DNA of 64,000 bases. Source: Microbotryum silenes-acaulis. Its lineage: Eukaryota; Basidiomycota; Microbotryomycetes; Microbotryales; Microbotryaceae. Below, piece after piece: positions 16,039-53,762 of the stretch. A program made the translations under genes and the position numbers. Position 1 is the stretch's first letter. Each line of letters starts with the position of its first letter. Location: assembly GCA_003665825.1 (NCBI GenBank), contig QPFY01000002.1, positions 1,984,001 through 2,048,000 of the forward strand, written 5' to 3'. The notes beneath the pieces were generated by a model. The model was not told the DNA's origin, ran no database searches, and was given only the letters and a program-made list of their open reading frames with translations.

Positions 16039-16159
16039 CACAGCGTGTGACCTCGCTCGACGATTCCCAGGCAGCGGATGAGCTTGTCGCGAAGAAGGCG
16101 CTTGACATTCGCTGCCGGTGAAAGGTCGACCGTGATGACGCGATCGGCGTTCCAGTGCG

Positions 16160-16390
16160 GTGATAACCGGATTCTGCTCTGCCCAAAAATGAGAAAACGA
16201 AGAACACACACCAGACGGTCGGCCCCGCTCTGTAACGCGGTCTGAACGTGCACGTGAAGATAATAAAAAAGTAAACACAGCGAACGCCCACATCACCCCA
16301 TGTTCTCCCCATCATTCCCATCTTCATTTGACCTGTTCCGACATGTTGCGAGTTGAAGCGGCTGCTTGGCAGCGGATTCACGACGATAAT
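16160..16390. repeat. older, diverged extension of the left inverted-repeat arm
   Basis: Its reverse complement aligns with 22335-22568 at roughly 75-80 percent by eye (shared words include AGATGGGAATGATGGGGAGAA, GTGGGCGTTCGCTGT and CTCATTTTTGGG). It spans the presumed promoter and 5' leader of the Q-rich gene. Divergence contrasts with the near-identical core arm next to it. Confidence 0.7.
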
Positions 16391-16538
16391 TGTAAGGGGA
16401 TGCCTTACAAGAACAGCCCCATAAGTAGCCTCTGAGTAGCTAGAACTATCGAGTTCTAGTTACGGCTTGCTTTTAGCCTAGCGGTCAAGAACGACAGATT
16501 GTATTTTATGCACATCAGAGGCGCATACCAGGCTTACA
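16391..16538 (+). repeat. MITE-like element, copy 2
   Basis: 148 bases starting TGTAAGGGGATG and ending CTTACAC, with the conserved inner block seen in copy 1 (3499-3623). TAAT occurs on both sides (16387-16390 and 16540-16543), a candidate target-site duplication. The mirror position in the right arm (about 22330) lacks the element, which shows insertion after the duplication or loss from the other side. Confidence 0.68.
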
Positions 16539-16545
16539 CTAATAG

Positions 16546-18310
16546 CAGCGACTCGCAAGGCGCTCGAGCAGAGGGGGGAAAGGAAAGCCACTAGGTAGTC
16601 ATAAGTGGGTTGTATGAGACACAAGTTTTTGTGACAAAGCTGTTGATCATCAATGATACCCGTCATGACGTCTTGCACTGCCGGTTGGTGGCAGGCGACA
16701 ATGAACGACGGTAATAAAATTTGAAACATATTCGGAGATCCTTGAAATATTCGGAGAAGAGAAAAGAGAAAGAAAAGGTTGTGGAAAGCCGATCATCGTT
16801 TCAGGGCGTTTATTAACGGCATTTTCGTAGAAAGTTGAGAATGAGTGAATGGGGAAACGCTTCCACACGGATTGTGTTCGACTGAGTCGGGCCTCATGCA
16901 AAAGCGCGTCGGACAAACCATGACCGCTGGCCTCGTGAACGCAGGCAGATCTGATCAACACCACCGGAGGTTAGAATGACTCCTCATAATATGCATCGTC
17001 CTGTGGATTTCGACGGTGAGCAACCCACAAGGGACTCGGCGTCCCTCGACGCTCGGAGATCACCACGCGCACTGCACGTGACCCGACCGACCCCTTAACC
17101 ACTCGACCAGTCGAATCATCAAAACGGACTCGCTAGTCCAGATTACACAGGTCGAGTAGACAAGGGGTAGATACAACGCAGATACGGGGTGTACGGTCAA
17201 TGTAACAGAGTAGAAGAAGGGCAAAATTGGGGGGCGAACACATACATCGGAGAACAAACACGCAAATCCAAGACTCTCAGGGCACCAGTGGGAGGGCCAG
17301 CCATATACACAGTCGGAGCAGAGGAAAGGGAGTACTACCATTGTCGTAATGTATATACACGTAAGAGAAAACCGAAACCTGCAGCTCTAGGCCTGCATCG
17401 GATCGTAATTCACGAGAATGTCAGTTAAATCGGCCTTCCAAAGCCCTCGAATCGTTGCTCAAACCACTGACCTTCTTCCTCCCCAAGAACAATCGTTGCA
17501 TCACATTCGGCCGCTTGAGGCCTTCTTTCTCATCCACGCTTGAATCCGGATCCTGTCCGGCACTCTTGACCCCTCTCAAAGGTTGTCCCCCATCGTACCA
17601 ATCCTTGATCCTCTCGCCGCCGATCGTCGTATGAGCCGAAACGAGCGCTGGTCGAACGGCTCCTCCGACGTTCTCGTCCCGTACCTGGATGACGACACCT
17701 GAAGCGACGTGTTCTTCGCGAGGCGGGGCCGCACCTTCTTTGTTGGAGCGTCCGAAACGTCGAGCAAGTGACTTGGTCCGCTTTGGTCGGTCGGTCGGGG
17801 AATGGGCGGATGCGTGCGCAGCGTAGAATTCATCGAGAGCAGGCATGGGTGGAGGGCTTGACGGAACTCCGACAGGTTTGCCAGCCGCCAGCGTGGCCTG
17901 TCGTCATGACAGGGGTCAAAGTGAACAAGGATCAGCATAACCCCCTCAAAAGTACCAGTAAGGTCAAAGCAACTGACTTCGATATCCCAAATCGACTGGG
18001 TCCTACAGAAGCGATCTTCCTTGGTGAGGCTGGCGTCTCCTCTTGTCGAAGCCGTCCCCCCGCCCGCATTCCAATCTCGCCTTCCGAAATCTTCCCAAGC
18101 TTCCGAGTCCCTGAGGAGGATGAATTGAACCACGCTAGCCGGGTCAGTTGTCGGTCTCAGAAGACAGAGAAACGCCGGGGTGAGACAGATCTTGGCCTCA
18201 CCTGACGCCATACATCTCGATCAACTGCGACCCCTTCCCAGCCCCCGGAGCGATCGGGAAACCCATGTTGATCTTAGGTCGTGCCTCGGACGCCGGCCTT
18301 CCGGCCGCCG
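16546..18310 (+). repeat. inverted-repeat core, left arm (1765 bases)
   Basis: Reverse complement of 20565-22329: position x pairs with 38875 minus x. The only difference I found is at 17924 (A) versus 20951 (C, where T would be expected), inside a PAL1 intron. The arm holds the 3' half of PAL1 and about 840 bases beyond its stop. Inner end at 18310, where the CGGCCGCCG word stops matching. Confidence 0.95.
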
Positions 18311-19922
18311 CGTAAGGTCCATCTTTCCCAATCCCACCCTGCGGTCCCGAACCATCTTGCTCCATCGCGTTGAGAACAGCTGCGGCCCTGGGAGATAATC
18401 GTGCAGAGGGTTGATGACGCACGGGGGCAGTCGAGGGAGTGACCTTGAGTTTGGGCTTGGCGGACACAGTGTCGCCGAAAGGTGGAACTAAGGCTGCAGG
18501 GTTGAAGGCGCCGATGGGGGCACACGGACCCTTGTTCCTCGCTGCTGTCGCTGCCGCGTAGGGCCCGTCGTGTCGGACCAGACCTGACAGTGGCCCAGAT
18601 GGTAACATCGTCAGCATCCTGCCGACGCGAGCAGCTGAATCTAATATGAGAGCGCTCACCTCCTCCACCATACAGTCCACTGATGTCGAGCTTGTCAATG
18701 ACATCCAAGGGTACGTCGCTTTTTCTTTCCACCGGCCGAGGGGCCGTTTTCTTATTCATCAACGAGGCATGCCTGGTCATTTGCGCGCCGTTGGTACCTT
18801 TGGCGTTGCTGTTGCTGTTGCTGTTGCCGGTGCCATTGATTTTGCCGTTGATGTCGGAGAGGGTGTTGGATTTGGCATTGCGGTTGGCGCTCGGACTCAC
18901 GGGACCTCGGGTGGTAGCGCTGGCGTTGGTGCTGAGATTAGGGTGGGACCCCGCGCTGTGGAGGTTGGCGGATGTGATCGAGGTCCGAACCGTCCTCGGA
19001 GCTGGGGCACGCGTACTCGACTTGTAGGCCGAGGTCGTCGACTGGTTCGACAACGTTTCGGGGTTGTAGCTTGCGTCGCTCTGTGCTCGACTCCGTCCGC
19101 CGTGGCCATTCGAGCTCCCACTCGCCGAAGCGCCGTCCGCAAAGGGGCCAGCGGATCGCGTGAAGGTCATTGAACTCGAAGCTGGACCCTGTGGCAATTG
19201 TTGGGGACGCGCCTTTACGGGCGAGTGGGTCCTGGAGGGGGAAGTCGAGGTTGATCGGTCCGACGGTGGGTCCGAAACCGAGTCCGAATACTCGGATAGG
19301 TAGGTATAGTGCTCGAGCAGTGAGTCATTTGTTGTCGATCTCGGAGTTGGTCGGTCGGGCACGGCGGCGATCGTCTGCGGGGGGTGCATGTCGTTCGATG
19401 TGTGATCAGTCTAACGTTATCGCACCGAGAAAACCTCGAGTAAAGAGTCTTTGGAGTGGGTCAAGAAGAGAGAATCGAGCATTGGGCCCGCGCGTCCAGG
19501 GAGGGCTACGTATGCACTGCCCGATCGCCAAGCCTTGATGGACTGGGCGAGCGGCCTGCAGCCGCCAGCTGCGCGGCCGTGTCGGGTCATTCATTCACAC
19601 GCCCGCGCGCCAGGGAGATGCTACTCGAGGCCAGGCGAGAGGGATGCATGCAACTCACCACGACATTGTCCAGTGCATCCCGTAGCGAGCGATCATCTTG
19701 AAAAGGGTCTGATGAAGGTAGAACGCATCCGGAACCAATGGACAACGTGTCGAGATGATAGTGGAGGTCGTCAGGGGTGGGCGAGGGCAGCGGCGACACG
19801 CGACGGTCGAGGTCATAGTCGAGACGGTCATCGGTGGCGACAGGCACAGCGGCGACGACAACGAAGCCCCAACGACGGGTGGACAGAGAGCAAGGAGAAG
19901 CGGGTGTCAGTGTCGCCAACAT
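17387..19922 (-). CDS. PAL1: Pal1-family cell morphology protein
   Basis: Membrane-associated fungal protein needed for cylindrical cell shape and linked to endocytic sites. Exons: about 19922-19659, 19374-18660, 18583-18202, 18110-17978, 17897-17472, 17434-17387; 655 residues. Pal1 hallmarks: LDISGLYGGG, then RHDGPYAAATAARNK and CAPIGAFNP in exon 3, GSQLIEMYGVRDSEAWEDF across exons 3-4, and basic RPKRTKSLARRFGR near the C-terminus. Exon 1 is less certain (it carries a DPF motif fitting endocytic adaptors); the start could be another ATG. The last intron is only 37 bases. If it is not spliced, the protein ends at 17421 instead. Exons from the middle of exon 3 to the stop lie in the left arm of the inverted repeat, so this half is duplicated. 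Confidence 0.87.
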
Positions 19923-20564
19923 CTCGGATTTGAGAAGACAACGCAGTCGATGAAAGTTCACAAATCCCCGGTGACGGCTTCCCTAGATTACAAGAAGCGG
20001 TCCCGACCCGCCGACCGCCCACGACGCGTCGAGCAGCCGCGGACGTCGGTTGGAGACAACACTCCGAGCGGTCGTTCCCTTTGGTGCGCGCCGCGACGGG
20101 GTCCGGGGCCCATTCCTGGAGCTAAGATGCGGTGTCGAAGAAAGAACTCACCGGCATTGAATGTTCTCGCAACGCGTGTCGACGCCATCCCGGACGGGGC
20201 GTAGGAGCGGCCACTTTTTGGAGGTGGTGGAACGGGTCAATGCGTGCTGCTGGCAGATTGGCAAGCCAGTCAGATCGATCCGAAACCCGCAGTGTCGGCG
20301 CCTGGGGGAGTCCGCCTAGCAAGTGGCCAGGCCCACCTCCGCCTTTCTTCGGGTCGACAGCGTTAGTGGCCCTTTTTTTCACAGAATCAAAGTATAGATT
20401 GCCACTGGAAACTCTACGCTAATCGCTACTATGACTAATGCCTTCTGATTCACCTAGCCTCACCTGGACACTCTACGAATACGAAGTTGATCGCTAAGGA
20501 AACTAATTAAAGACTGTCCAGGCGCGCATCCCCTCATAAGGTTTAGGCGCACGGGCTTTACAGT
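19923..20564. other. spacer of the inverted repeat beyond the PAL1 start
   Basis: Likely PAL1 promoter plus unique sequence up to the right arm. A short near-repeat (GGAAACTCTACG and GGACACTCTACG, near 20400-20476) is visible. No gene is recognised. The sequence just before the right arm (TTTACAG at 20558-20564) happens to look like a splice acceptor. Confidence 0.5.
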
Positions 20565-21488
20565 CGGCGGCCGGAAGGCCGGCGTCCGAGGCACGACCTA
20601 AGATCAACATGGGTTTCCCGATCGCTCCGGGGGCTGGGAAGGGGTCGCAGTTGATCGAGATGTATGGCGTCAGGTGAGGCCAAGATCTGTCTCACCCCGG
20701 CGTTTCTCTGTCTTCTGAGACCGACAACTGACCCGGCTAGCGTGGTTCAATTCATCCTCCTCAGGGACTCGGAAGCTTGGGAAGATTTCGGAAGGCGAGA
20801 TTGGAATGCGGGCGGGGGGACGGCTTCGACAAGAGGAGACGCCAGCCTCACCAAGGAAGATCGCTTCTGTAGGACCCAGTCGATTTGGGATATCGAAGTC
20901 AGTTGCTTTGACCTTACTGGTACTTTTGAGGGGGTTATGCTGATCCTTGTCCACTTTGACCCCTGTCATGACGACAGGCCACGCTGGCGGCTGGCAAACC
21001 TGTCGGAGTTCCGTCAAGCCCTCCACCCATGCCTGCTCTCGATGAATTCTACGCTGCGCACGCATCCGCCCATTCCCCGACCGACCGACCAAAGCGGACC
21101 AAGTCACTTGCTCGACGTTTCGGACGCTCCAACAAAGAAGGTGCGGCCCCGCCTCGCGAAGAACACGTCGCTTCAGGTGTCGTCATCCAGGTACGGGACG
21201 AGAACGTCGGAGGAGCCGTTCGACCAGCGCTCGTTTCGGCTCATACGACGATCGGCGGCGAGAGGATCAAGGATTGGTACGATGGGGGACAACCTTTGAG
21301 AGGGGTCAAGAGTGCCGGACAGGATCCGGATTCAAGCGTGGATGAGAAAGAAGGCCTCAAGCGGCCGAATGTGATGCAACGATTGTTCTTGGGGAGGAAG
21401 AAGGTCAGTGGTTTGAGCAACGATTCGAGGGCTTTGGAAGGCCGATTTAACTGACATTCTCGTGAATTACGATCCGATGCAGGCCTAG
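20565..21488 (+). pseudogene. 5'-truncated copy of PAL1
   Basis: Contains the last part of PAL1 exon 3 (20565-20673) and complete copies of exons 4-6 (20765-20897, 20978-21403, 21441-21488) with all splice sites intact. It lacks exons 1-2 and the first part of exon 3, so the conserved DGPY core is missing. An in-frame ATG at 20609 could start a 223-residue C-terminal fragment if the locus is transcribed. No promoter from PAL1 is carried along. Its sequence identity to the intact gene is maintained, so neither decay nor selection can be read from it. Confidence 0.85.
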
Positions 21489-22329
21489 AGCTGCAGGTTT
21501 CGGTTTTCTCTTACGTGTATATACATTACGACAATGGTAGTACTCCCTTTCCTCTGCTCCGACTGTGTATATGGCTGGCCCTCCCACTGGTGCCCTGAGA
21601 GTCTTGGATTTGCGTGTTTGTTCTCCGATGTATGTGTTCGCCCCCCAATTTTGCCCTTCTTCTACTCTGTTACATTGACCGTACACCCCGTATCTGCGTT
21701 GTATCTACCCCTTGTCTACTCGACCTGTGTAATCTGGACTAGCGAGTCCGTTTTGATGATTCGACTGGTCGAGTGGTTAAGGGGTCGGTCGGGTCACGTG
21801 CAGTGCGCGTGGTGATCTCCGAGCGTCGAGGGACGCCGAGTCCCTTGTGGGTTGCTCACCGTCGAAATCCACAGGACGATGCATATTATGAGGAGTCATT
21901 CTAACCTCCGGTGGTGTTGATCAGATCTGCCTGCGTTCACGAGGCCAGCGGTCATGGTTTGTCCGACGCGCTTTTGCATGAGGCCCGACTCAGTCGAACA
22001 CAATCCGTGTGGAAGCGTTTCCCCATTCACTCATTCTCAACTTTCTACGAAAATGCCGTTAATAAACGCCCTGAAACGATGATCGGCTTTCCACAACCTT
22101 TTCTTTCTCTTTTCTCTTCTCCGAATATTTCAAGGATCTCCGAATATGTTTCAAATTTTATTACCGTCGTTCATTGTCGCCTGCCACCAACCGGCAGTGC
22201 AAGACGTCATGACGGGTATCATTGATGATCAACAGCTTTGTCACAAAAACTTGTGTCTCATACAACCCACTTATGACTACCTAGTGGCTTTCCTTTCCCC
22301 CCTCTGCTCGAGCGCCTTGCGAGTCGCTG
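20565..22329 (-). repeat. inverted-repeat core, right arm (1765 bases)
   Basis: Mirror copy of 16546-18310, separated from it by a 2254-base spacer. Near-identity over 1765 bases includes introns and untranslated sequence, so this is a DNA-level duplication, not a retrocopy. Confidence 0.95.
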
Positions 22330-22334
22330 GCACT

Positions 22335-22568
22335 CGCTGCTTCATCGTCGTGAGTCCGCTGCCAAGCAGTTGCTTCAACTCGCAACACGTCGCGGAACAG
22401 GCCAAATGAAGATGGGAATGATGGGGAGAAAGTGGGGTTGTGTGGGCGTTCGCTGTCTATTAATTTTTTTTACGTGCTCGTTCAGGCCGCGTTGCACAGG
22501 GGACTGGTATCTGTTCTTTGTTTTATCATTTTTGGGTACTGGAATAGATCGAGTCCGGTGATCACAGT
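22335..22568. repeat. older, diverged extension of the right inverted-repeat arm
   Basis: Counterpart of 16160-16390 in inverse orientation. It lacks the MITE-like insert and carries instead about 14 unmatched bases (GCACTCGCTGCTTC) at the junction. Homology fades near a CCGGTGATCAC word at about 22568. Confidence 0.68.
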
Positions 22569-23033
22569 TTGATTGCCACGCATGGACCTGGAACGGGGGG
22601 AGGCTTCTAGCGCGTCAGGCCACGCCTAAACGCAGATTACGCCTGGGCCACCGCAAATGGCGCTTCCAACAGCACGACAGTCCAGCCGATTGCCGACTTT
22701 CGAGAGTGAGTAGAAGACAGCGAGTTCCACAAAGACGAAACGAAAAGTAAAAAACAGCTAGAGAAAGCAAGAGCAGGGAAGACCTATATAGCATAGTACA
22801 CAGAGGGCGGCAGGGCATTGGAAATGACGGAAAACACGGGACATCTCGGCGATGAACGCGCGGGCGAGAACAAAGGACGATCCGCAGGAGCAAAGATAAG
22901 CCTATGCCTGTCAAGCCCCATCAGGGGGCCGATCAACGGTCGTCGGGTCAAGTACGATGCATAAGAAGAGCGTGACGAAGGCAGAAAAATGTAGAGAGAA
23001 AAATAGGAGCCCGCCGAAAGACCCACTGGGCAT
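22569..23033. other. intergenic 3' of RAB5
   Basis: No gene or repeat recognised. This is the 3' flank of the minus-strand RAB5 gene. Confidence 0.5.
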
Positions 23034-32305: not shown

Positions 32306-32482
32306 CACGCTGAGCAAACGGACGGCGGTCTTTGATCCTCAGCCACGATTACCGAGTGGGGATGAGGAGAAAGCGTATGATGCGGGATCGGAAGTGAGGT
32401 CCTTGCGTGACGCGTGGGAACGGTTCGCTCAGGTGCAGGCCGATGCATTGATATCGCTCATTAAGGATTGGTCGTTGGGCGT
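32306..32482 (+). pseudogene. fragment of the FUSC/DUF2421 gene
   Basis: In the plus frame it reads TLSKRTAVFDPQPRLPSGD, EEKAYDAGSE and LRDAWERFAQVQADALISLI. This matches an internal piece of the gene at 46819-50816 (there LSKRTTVFDPERRTPSGD and so on, DNA about 48975-49153 on the minus strand). Identity is roughly 85 percent at DNA level by eye. Only one exon segment is present, with no flanking parts of the parent gene. It lies in the YVC1-MTO1 intergenic region. Confidence 0.85.
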
Positions 32483-45970: not shown

Positions 45971-46088
45971 GAAGCCCGTGCTCAGCCTCTCATAGGTCTC
46001 TAAGCCGAGAACTCTCTACGACCCAAGCGCGTGTCTCAGCATGGAATCACTTTGTCAGCAAAGCATCAATCCGCGCTCGAAGATGCTG
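45971..46088 (+). repeat. imperfect inverted repeat, left arm
   Basis: Reverse complement of 46221-46360 with small gaps. A perfect 30-base core lies at 46037-46066 (starts CAGCATGGAATCAC, ends AGCAAAGCAT), pairing with 46264-46293. The arms would fold into a long hairpin with a loop of about 130 bases. Confidence 0.85.
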
Positions 46089-46220: not shown

Positions 46221-46360
46221 CAGCATCTTTGAGCGCGGGATTGAGACGGCAGCGCTATTTTCCATGCTTTGCTGACAAAGTGATTCCATGCTGAGACTGC
46301 GCGCTTGGGTCGTAGACGGTTCTCCGCATAGAGACCTGTGAGAAGCTGAGCACGGGCTTC
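46221..46360 (-). repeat. imperfect inverted repeat, right arm
   Basis: Partner of 45971-46088. Extra bases relative to the left arm lie around 46240-46262. Outside the core, arms match at roughly 85 percent by eye. Confidence 0.85.
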
Positions 46361-46818: not shown

Positions 46819-49800
46819 TCAAAGTACTCCATCAGATATCATGTGGGGGTCGTCGAAGAGCTCCCCGAGATACTGCTCCAGGTTTTCAAGCTCGGACGAG
46901 ACCGACCCGAGCGAGACGAGGTAGAACCTATTCAAAAGGCAAGCGGTTGGACACGAGCAATCAGAACGGGTGCCCACAACGAGCTTCGGCATGTGTGAAA
47001 CATGTAGCGACTCACCAGTACCTGAGAAATCCAGGTCGTTTGAGCTCGGCCTCGCCTCGCGGCAATTGACTAGACCGATGAGCAGTCGAGGATCAGCTTT
47101 CACACGACGCGACAGTACACTCAGATCCTAGAAAAAATCAACTGACCTTAGACGACGGGATAAAACGAGTGCATCGTTCTCGAACGACGCCCAGGTCGGC
47201 TTGGAAGAAGGGACGTCACGCGCCAATGGGGTCTTGCACATCACTGTAAAGCGTCCACAACCCAGTCAGCTCCACACCACCACCTCAATTACCCCGAGAA
47301 CAAGCCATCAAACTCACGCGACGTCGCCGCAAGATGGAACAACACCCTCGCCAACCTCTGCGAATGCAGCCGATAAGGGAACAACGCACTCGCGAAATCT
47401 TTATGCACCGTCTCGTTAAACCCTCTGGTCCCGACCGCCGTTCGAGCCTCCCTCAATCGATCCAGAATGATTTGGTGCGAGTTAATGATCTTGAGCAAGA
47501 CGTCGGCTTTGAAGGGGAGGCCAAAGGTAGGCTCGACTTTGGCGTACCCGAACGTCGTTGGAAGCTTCAAGAGCGCGGATTGGATCGCGATTTCTTGTTG
47601 GACTAACTCGTCGGCGATTTGATCCAATGCTTCGGGTGAAGGCATGGGTGCATCATCGGCGGGTGCGACGACGTTGATCAGAGTCTGCAAAAGCGTATTG
47701 TACCGCGCGAGCGAGGAGGTGATGGTCGCGATCTCCTTTCGAAGCTGTCGTCGAGCTGGAGACCTCAAGAAGAAGAGTTGCAAGATCGCCGAGATACCGA
47801 TCGAGATGCCCATTGAGCCAATGAGGTGGGCGAAGCGAAGCGGCGGAGCTTCGTAGGGCTGTCTGAGCGTCGCCATCGCCACTGGGTTCTCGTTGTAGAG
47901 GTATTCGAGAATGACGACGTTGCCGCTACCGACCATCATCAGTAACGAGGCGGTATAGTACTGCGGGCTCCCGTAGAAGATGAAGGATGAGAAGGCGGCC
48001 CAAACGGCGATCGCTGCCGCGAGACCATAAGGGTTGTAGACGTGTCCTCCAGCGTTGTGAAAGATCTCGAGCACGATCAAGCCGTACAGAGCACCGACCC
48101 CCGTGCCCGCAAGCTGCAGGACCCAAGTCCAGGTCGTTTGGCCCAAGGTGGGTGAGATGGCGACGATGACGGTGATGAGTGACGATGTCATGCCATATTT
48201 GAGAAAAAGGTTCGTTTGAAGGGACGGCGTGAGGATGAAGACTGTGTACAACGAGGCACCGATGGCGACTTTGAAGGCGTCTGTCCGGCGTGCAGGGATT
48301 ATTCAGTCTCATTCTGGCCCATCAAATTGAGGTTCATACCATTTGACGAGCAACTTACAAAGCGATCGATTACCCCTCAACCACCTCTCGAACCAGACGA
48401 AACGCTGTGTAAGGGTGACCTTTGGCGCTGTATAAGGGTCGCCTTTCAGTGTCGCCAGAGCTTCAGGTAACGTCATCCCGTTCGGCCTTTGCCATGGCGC
48501 CAATACTTTCTGCCGCAGGGTGTAAAAAATGTAAGGTCGGATCCGTTTCTTGCGATTGGTTGTGACGAGCGAATGAAGTGAGCACAATTCATCGGTCAGT
48601 TGCCTAGCGTGAAGACGCCGGGCATCAGCTCTCGACTTGTGCATAATCTCAACGAGAGTAGAAGTGAACTGACCCGAAGCCAAAGAGGATCGAATACGAC
48701 TTGGTCAACGCCGCCGAGATGGCCACCTCTTCCGGATGTGCAGAGTCTTCGCCGCCTCTCGAGGATCCGGCAAAGCTGCTCATGGGTACGACGTGTCGTA
48801 TGCGTCTCAGGGACGTCTCGGCGACGAGCGAGCTTGTCCAAGCTTTGGGGAGTCGATCCGCGTACCTATCGTACAACCTCACGTAAGTCTGAAGCCCCTG
48901 AATAGGATCCGAAGATGCTCAACTCACATCATCTGTAATCCCGGCATCCCTTCCTCGATCCTCAAAACATCCTCGATGCCCAATGACCCATCCTTGATGA
49001 GCGATATCAACGCATCGGCCTGCACCTGAGCAAAGCGTTCCCACGCGTCACGCAAGAACCCCAATTCCGATCCCGCATCATACGCTTTCTCCTCATCCCC
49101 ACTCGGCGTTCGTCGTTCGGGGTCAAAGACCGTCGTCCGTTTGCTCAGCGTGTGGCGCAGGTCGGCGGCGGCTTGGGCTTGTTCCTGCGGTGTGGGGGGA
49201 TCGTTCGTCGTGGGCGCATTGGACACGCTCGATTCTCTCGATGCTTGTTGTTGCCTAATTTCGGAGCGTTGTACCTCTCTCCTCAACTTGTCCCCGATGG
49301 TCATCAATTGCTCGATCGTCTCCTTGCGTGACAAAGGCGCGCCCGCCACAGGCTCTGCCGCACCTGTTCTTGGCTGCGTCGCGGGTGGTGGCAGTGTCGG
49401 TTCTTGATTGGCGCGAGAATGCATGTGCCATCGTTCCCTCATCTCTTGCCCGTGCACATCTTCTTCGCCAGTATGTTTCCTCTGTTGTTGTTTGTTGTCA
49501 TTCCCTAGCAACTGATCGACGATAGAAGCGATGACCAAATCGATGCCTCTTCGAAACGCCTTGAACGTCGCCGCCGATTCACTCCTCGCCAACAAGTGAC
49601 GCTTAACATTGATCCCTTCCGGATCGAGTTCGTCGATCAGATCCAGCGCCGAGGAGGACGTGATCAAGGCCTGTTGCAAGCCTTGGACTTTGGCGATCAT
49701 GTCCTGCCAATCGACGAAACGGAATTGGGAATGAAGGCGAACTTCGTAAGCCGTTTCTTCGAGGCGCGAAGCGAGGGCGAGGTAGTCGGACCTGATCGTT

Positions 49801-52972: not shown

Positions 52973-53176
52973 GCGCGACGTCGTCTTCTTCGATTCGCCG
53001 CTGCTGCCTCTCGCGAAGTCGTCGTTGTCGCTGTGCTTCGGATCTGCGATTGTTCGAGGTTGCTGTTGGCGGGTGCTGTGCGGGCGCGACGTCGTCTTCT
53101 TCGATTCGCCGCTGCTGCCTCTCGCGAAGTCGTCGTTGTCGCTGTGCTTCGGATCTGAGATTGTTCGAGGTTGCTG
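52973..53176 (-). repeat. 111-base tandem duplication inside the Helitron reading frame
   Basis: Copies 52973-53065 and 53084-53176 differ by very few bases; the period of 111 keeps the frame (37 codons). Each encodes SEAQRQRRLRERQQRRIEED. A third, diverged unit (SAEQRQRRQRERVRSNR) lies near 52750-52800. Confidence 0.9.
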
Positions 53177-53762
53177 GCGGCGGCGTCTGTGCGATTAGAG
53201 TCGATTGTTGGGGTGAGGGCTGGTTGGGGAGGCGACTTGGCTGCCCGGATGGAGGGACCCCAGGGAGAGAAGGTGGCCGGTATCCTCGGCGTCCGAGTGA
53301 ACCCGGCGAACCTTGCGCAAAGCCTTCCACCAAGCGTTCCAACGTTGCTCAGGCAGATCGAATACCTTCTGGTGTCCCTTGGGGAAGATAGGAGGGAAGA
53401 TGAAAACTTGGTGGCGTTTGGACGCGTTCACAAACGAAGATGGGGTCATCACCTCGCCATCGGGCCCTCGAAAAAGCGTCGGGTTTACCGAGAGTTGTAT
53501 TCCGTGGCCCGCTGGGAAGTAGAGTACGTGCGTCGCCCATTGCTCGAGGTTCTGGCTCTTGGAGAGTTCGATCAACCGGTGCTTGTCGGCGCAATTCGCA
53601 TTAGTAACTGGGTCAAGACGATCGCTTGCCTCGGATTAGACCAGACGCTACTTTCATTTCACCCCCACTCGTCATCGTCCTCGTTCTCGTTCTCGTTCTC
53701 GTTGGGACAGGTCAGGTCGCTCCTCTTGCCCTGCATCGCCGACCTCTTCGCACATACACAGC

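Follow-up and report, generated by a model that had tools for sequence, protein, structure and literature searches.

Organisation of the PAL1 locus

The window (the whole stretch of DNA analysed, 64,000 nucleotides from Microbotryum silenes-acaulis) contains an inverted duplication that involves the gene PAL1 (Table 1). Its two arms, of 1765 nt each, are inverted with respect to each other and separated by a spacer of 2254 nt. They differ by a single substitution, at position 17924 (A against G when both are read in arm orientation), and by no indel, which agrees with the near-identical 1765-base inverted duplication reported in the preliminary description of this DNA. A search of the whole assembly (29,850,648 bases, or 29.85 Mb, in 88 contigs) returns 29 arm matches. 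Two are full-length and correspond to these two loci, and the other 27, which are 51–156 bases long, all lie within the first 146 bases of the arm. The inverted duplication is real in the assembly, recent and well preserved. The arm ends have no Rfam match at the gathering cut-off and no tRNA was found there.

Table 1. Features of the PAL1 locus (positions in the window).
Feature	Position	Strand	Description
Left R, outer part	16144-16387	+	terminal stretch of dispersed repeat R, 76% identical to the contig C7 copy
Nested short element in left R	16391-16538	+	ends TGTAAGG...CTTACA; 148 bases; not in right R
Left arm	16546-18310	+	putative parental arm: 146 bases of R, PAL1 3' flank, last 35% of PAL1
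PAL1	17387-19922	-	deduced; 6 exons, 641 aa, PF08316
PAL1 exons (deduced)	19922-19659, 19374-18660, 18583-18202, 18110-17978, 17897-17472, 17392-17387	-	
Spacer	18311-20564	.	5' two thirds of PAL1, PAL1 upstream region, second short element
Second short element	20379-20562	+	ends ...CTTTACA; 2 bases from the inner end of the right arm
Right arm	20565-22329	-	putative derived copy: PAL1 3' part, without promoter
Right R, outer part	22330-22590	-	second, inverted R fragment, truncated at the arm; carries GAAGCAGCGAGTGC immediately next to it

The protein deduced after splicing has a match to PF08316 (Pal1 cell morphology protein), with an E value of 1e-8 and 36.4 bits, above the curated cut-off of 25, so the name given to the gene at the outset is correct. 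Among the 33 proteins found, the closest are those of Microbotryum silenes-dioicae (95% identical) and M. intermedium (90%). The arm contains the last 223 of the 641 whole codons (35%, rather than the half of PAL1 announced earlier) and 924 of the 2536 genic bases, together with 841 bases of 3' flank. The 3' part of the gene is indeed carried to the mirror locus as a truncated second copy, as had been proposed. Read on the + strand, this right copy has preserved exons and splice sites and lacks the PAL1 promoter; an in-frame ATG first occurs at 20609. The PF08316 match (residues 312–354, positions 18705–18503) falls in the spacer, and the mirror copy is therefore devoid of it. When the last 209 residues are used as a protein query, five matches are obtained, none of them named and none more than 46% identical. 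Judging from its sequence, the right copy is probably a dead fragment without function.

The spacer has one orientation in the single assembly examined. As can be deduced from the map, recombination between the arms could possibly invert it, leaving PAL1 intact in either orientation; in such a flip, as had been suggested, the 5' part of PAL1 would be joined to the other 3' half. A cruciform, also suggested at first, would need a loop of 2254 bases, and its extrusion from duplex DNA is unlikely for a loop of this size. Inverted repeats that lie far apart are described as unstable in yeast when they are exposed as long single strands (PMC10164571).

The window contains other repeats: a 175-base inverted pair (32306–32480 and 48978–49152, 90%), a 97-base inverted pair (45971–46066 and 46264–46360, 92%) and a 110-base tandem duplication (52973–53082 and 53084–53193, 94.5%).

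The flanks of the arms and the repeat family R

The sequences that flank the arms on their outer sides are homologous and diverged: 16182–16387 and 22344–22536 are 80.4% identical in BLAST when gaps are counted. A divergence of a fifth to a quarter of sites had been quoted previously, but substitutions alone account for only 25 of the 203 ungapped columns. Both flanks are fragments of a dispersed family, here called R, and they therefore need not belong to the duplication. In the genome itself, a search with each flank recovers that flank and its counterpart, plus 17 others at 71–77% for the right flank (19 matches in total) and nine others at 70–87% for the left one (11 in total). When the right flank is searched together with the outer part of the arm, 37 matches are found, 25 of which, besides the query, run unbroken over the arm boundary. 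R also extends over the first 146 bases of each arm; the change from 80% to 100% identity therefore occurs inside R.

The copies of R align from a common terminus, and it is this terminus, the copy number and one copy on another contig (contig C7, described below) that lead us to call R a transposon. Left–right homology stops at the R terminus and the sequences beyond are unrelated: the observed score is reached by 60 of 200 shuffles for the 200 bases beyond it and by 127 of 200 for 500 bases. R does not appear to form the two ends of one element that encloses PAL1, since the contig C7 copy, which is the one relative examined at length (8 kb fetched), has no inverted R within 8 kb.

In a 23-row tree of the R copies among the loci fetched (short matches of less than about 150 positions and identical copies dropped; 11 of the 20 inner branches drawn open, with weak support), the left and right R group as sisters, with a support of 97/91 and a shared branch of 0.051. 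Their end branches, 0.11 and 0.14, are similar to those of the other old copies (0.11–0.26). This sisterhood could result from an older local duplication or from two insertions of one subfamily. RIP is rejected as the source of the divergence between the two: 15 of the 25 substitutions are transitions and only one has its C in a TCG context.

Two short elements are found near the arms. The one nested in the left R is flanked by an apparent target duplication and belongs to a family with 43 matches listed, itself included (119 candidates, 40 scored); among the 42 others listed, 41 are at 93–98%. This family is very uniform and high-copy; by eye, internal hairpins are seen, and some copies have apparent 5-base target duplications (e.g., GCAAA, GCCTG). 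The second short element has 19 other matches, at 69–81%.

Junctions of the arms

The two arms differ in the way they are connected to their surroundings. On the inner side of the left arm, the Pal1 codons read through 18310 into the spacer, as in two relatives (P0001 and P0002). On its outer side, R continues and matches the copy on contig C16 (GATGTCAGCAGCGACTCGC), the nested element and its apparent target duplication aside. Both ends of the right arm are abrupt junctions. At the outer one, GAAGCAGCGAGTGC is followed by CAGCGACTCGC, a micro-duplication of about 10 bases inside R; R lies on both sides of this junction, and the match AGCAGCGA is shared. At the inner one, the arm starts 2 bases after the terminus of the second short element. 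Just past the tract present in both arms, PAL1 reads CGTAAGG, which resembles the TGTAAGG termini; this likeness may be microhomology or chance. Since PAL1 runs through the inner end of the left arm and R across its outer end, the left arm appears to be parental and the right one the copy.

This asymmetry bears on the possibility that the spacer was inverted through staggered breaks, the arms being the filled-in staggered ends. In favour of it, the staggered-break model predicts inverted duplications that flank an inverted segment. However, the arm that keeps its inner junction (the left one, with PAL1 intact) should then have a new outer junction, whereas R continues over the left outer end and it is the right arm that has the two abrupt junctions. 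We regard this explanation as highly improbable.

The near-perfect identity of the arms and the two abrupt junctions could also be expected if the right arm were absent from the chromosome and resulted from an artefact of assembly or library preparation. Such an artefact would need two unrelated junctions, the arms differ at one base, and the assembly has no third full-length arm locus. The unique spacer of 2.25 kb also speaks against missed adapters, whose palindromes are not known to contain one. In a search of its own genome, STE3 has matches at one place only, on contig C6, so the assembly looks haploid. The single STE3 locus speaks against mixed haplotypes, and a join between them is rejected on this basis. 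Overall, an artefact seems improbable.

Age of the duplication

The divergence between the arms (1/1765, or 0.06%) has a Poisson upper bound of 0.32%. The genus appears to have a RIP-like process in which repeats are mutated at TCG (PMC10502011). The arms agree at each of the 89 TCG/CGA sites, and the duplication is therefore too young for this process, has escaped it or has been homogenised. The RIP-like index of the arm (−0.29) is ordinary for the window, where 10 of 36 tiles have an equal or higher value. Either the copying event is recent or the arms have recently been homogenised.

Two substitutions in 146 bases and one 4-base insertion are private to the nested element when it is compared with the 19 relatives fetched. 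The two substitutions exceed what is expected of an element younger than the arms (P = 0.0008, or 0.023 if the divergence of the arms is set to its upper bound). Because they are too many for a younger age, the nested element is probably older than the copying, if the substitutions arose in place; they could instead have been inherited from the source copy. An older nested element fits a start of copying 7 bases inside it.

Origin of the right arm

We consider it probable that the right arm is a templated insertion produced in one repair event, by ectopic copying followed by end joining. Two old R fragments in inverted orientation would already have been present on either side of PAL1. A break would have occurred between the second short element (which ends at 20562) and the right R. 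A 3' end from the right R would have annealed to the left R just inward of the nested element, with the help of the shared AGCAGCGA, and synthesis would have copied 1765 bases inward, through the 3' flank of PAL1 and then the last 35% of the gene. The new strand would have been released and end-joined beside the second short element. Such an event would have placed an inverted PAL1 fragment upstream of the gene, which would itself have remained intact.

Several observations support the templated insertion. Both outer flanks belong to the dispersed family R, which runs into the first 146 bases of the arm, and the terminus of R is also where left–right homology ends. Past the inner junction, no residual homology is seen over 100 bases (182 of 200 shuffles reach the score). 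The left arm is apparently parental, the right arm is bounded by new junctions on both sides, and the nested element probably predates the copying. In addition, work in yeast describes the same hybrid, in which synthesis takes place at one end while the other is end-joined (PMC11724301).

Other data count against it. The sisterhood of the left and right R could be one such point, and a weak hint of residual similarity comes from the 500 bases past the inner junction, where 7 of 200 shuffles reach the score, a borderline value that refers to base shuffles only. The junction microhomologies are short and imperfect. By analogy, the length is also unfavourable: the templated inverted duplications of yeast mostly measure 5–34 bases, compared to 1765 here.

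The first two of these points favour an inverted duplication of greater age, spanning R as well as the 3' part of PAL1, whose arms were kept identical by gene conversion; conversion would have stopped at the nested element on the outside and at the end of homology on the inside. The identity step, 7 bases inside a large heterology, is also a possible end of a conversion tract. This scenario requires two steps and a conversion that reached exactly the end of homology. No diverged stub is seen within 100 bases past the inner end, and the outer homology ends at the R terminus, as is the case for separate repeat insertions. The diverged edges of the arms are repeat R rather than unique sequence; the two R fragments are nevertheless sisters. 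An older duplication maintained by conversion is, in our opinion, unlikely.

A possible link with a Fanzor/TnpB-like element

Downstream of the longer R copy on contig C7 are frames which contain GIDLG and a C-terminal zinc-finger-like stretch. These frames (L079:1809–6162) are interrupted or spliced. Of five frames scanned, one matches PF07282 (Cas12f1-like TNB) weakly, with an E value of 0.008, below the Pfam cut-off, and two pieces of the frames gave no relative when compared with solved structures. That these frames represent a Fanzor/TnpB-like gene in a Microbotryum-type repeat element is a possible lead, drawn partly from characteristic motifs. A search of open-licence full texts found nothing on Fanzor in Microbotryum.

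A second near-perfect palindrome is present on contig C3 (840632–844801; L080:1932–6101). It consists of two head-to-head copies that bear R, with arms of about 2 kb that are 99.3% identical over 4178 columns and a short unique centre.

The break at the right arm might have been made by a nuclease or transposase encoded by a transposon, which we judge very unlikely. This reading is suggested by the position of the right arm, which starts 2 bases from a TGTAAGG-type element end, by the CGTAAGG just past the copied tract in PAL1, by the fact that at least one R copy (contig C7) is upstream of Fanzor/TnpB-like frames, and by the R copy of contig C3 that sits in a 99.3% palindrome. If it were true, such elements would seed inverted gene duplications.

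Comparison with known systems and significance

Some palindromes, such as those of mammalian sex chromosomes, are kept alike by gene conversion from arm to arm. The present locus resembles them in its long, near-identical inverted arms and its unique spacer, but its arms contain no intact second gene and have no demonstrated history of repeated conversion.

Templated and inverted insertions are formed at double-strand breaks in yeast, and most local ones are 5–34 bases long (PMC11724301). As in those insertions, an inverted copy of nearby sequence is found here, and it would likewise derive from synthesis primed at one end by short homology, the other end being captured through end joining. 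The differences are the length of the tract and the priming, which would have taken place within or next to a homologous repeat fragment.

Inverted duplication is driven by inverted repeats near a break; when long single strands are formed, widely spaced repeats take part, and the duplication is suppressed only if heterology exceeds 25% (PMC10622511, PMC10164571). The present locus shares with these foldback inverted duplications the inverted repeats near the presumed break. Foldback events yield hairpin-capped and dicentric chromosomes in the same accounts, whereas here the segment between the repeats has been copied and the contig continues through both arms. In a foldback duplication the repeats are central and the duplicated region extends outward from the pair; here the two R fragments are outermost, with the duplicated region between them and a unique centre of 2254 bases, so the locus does not have this arrangement.

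Among open-licence full texts, no title dealt with an inverted duplication in Microbotryum, and none was found on inverted duplication or template switching in a fungal genome with a truncated gene copy. The locus is most likely a repair scar of a known kind between two old transposon fragments, and not a new system. The donor and the two junctions of a long and recent templated insertion between diverged repeat copies would all be preserved at this locus. It also indicates that a step in identity between arm and flank need not mean gene conversion, since the homology of the flanks can be that of a separate pair of repeats.
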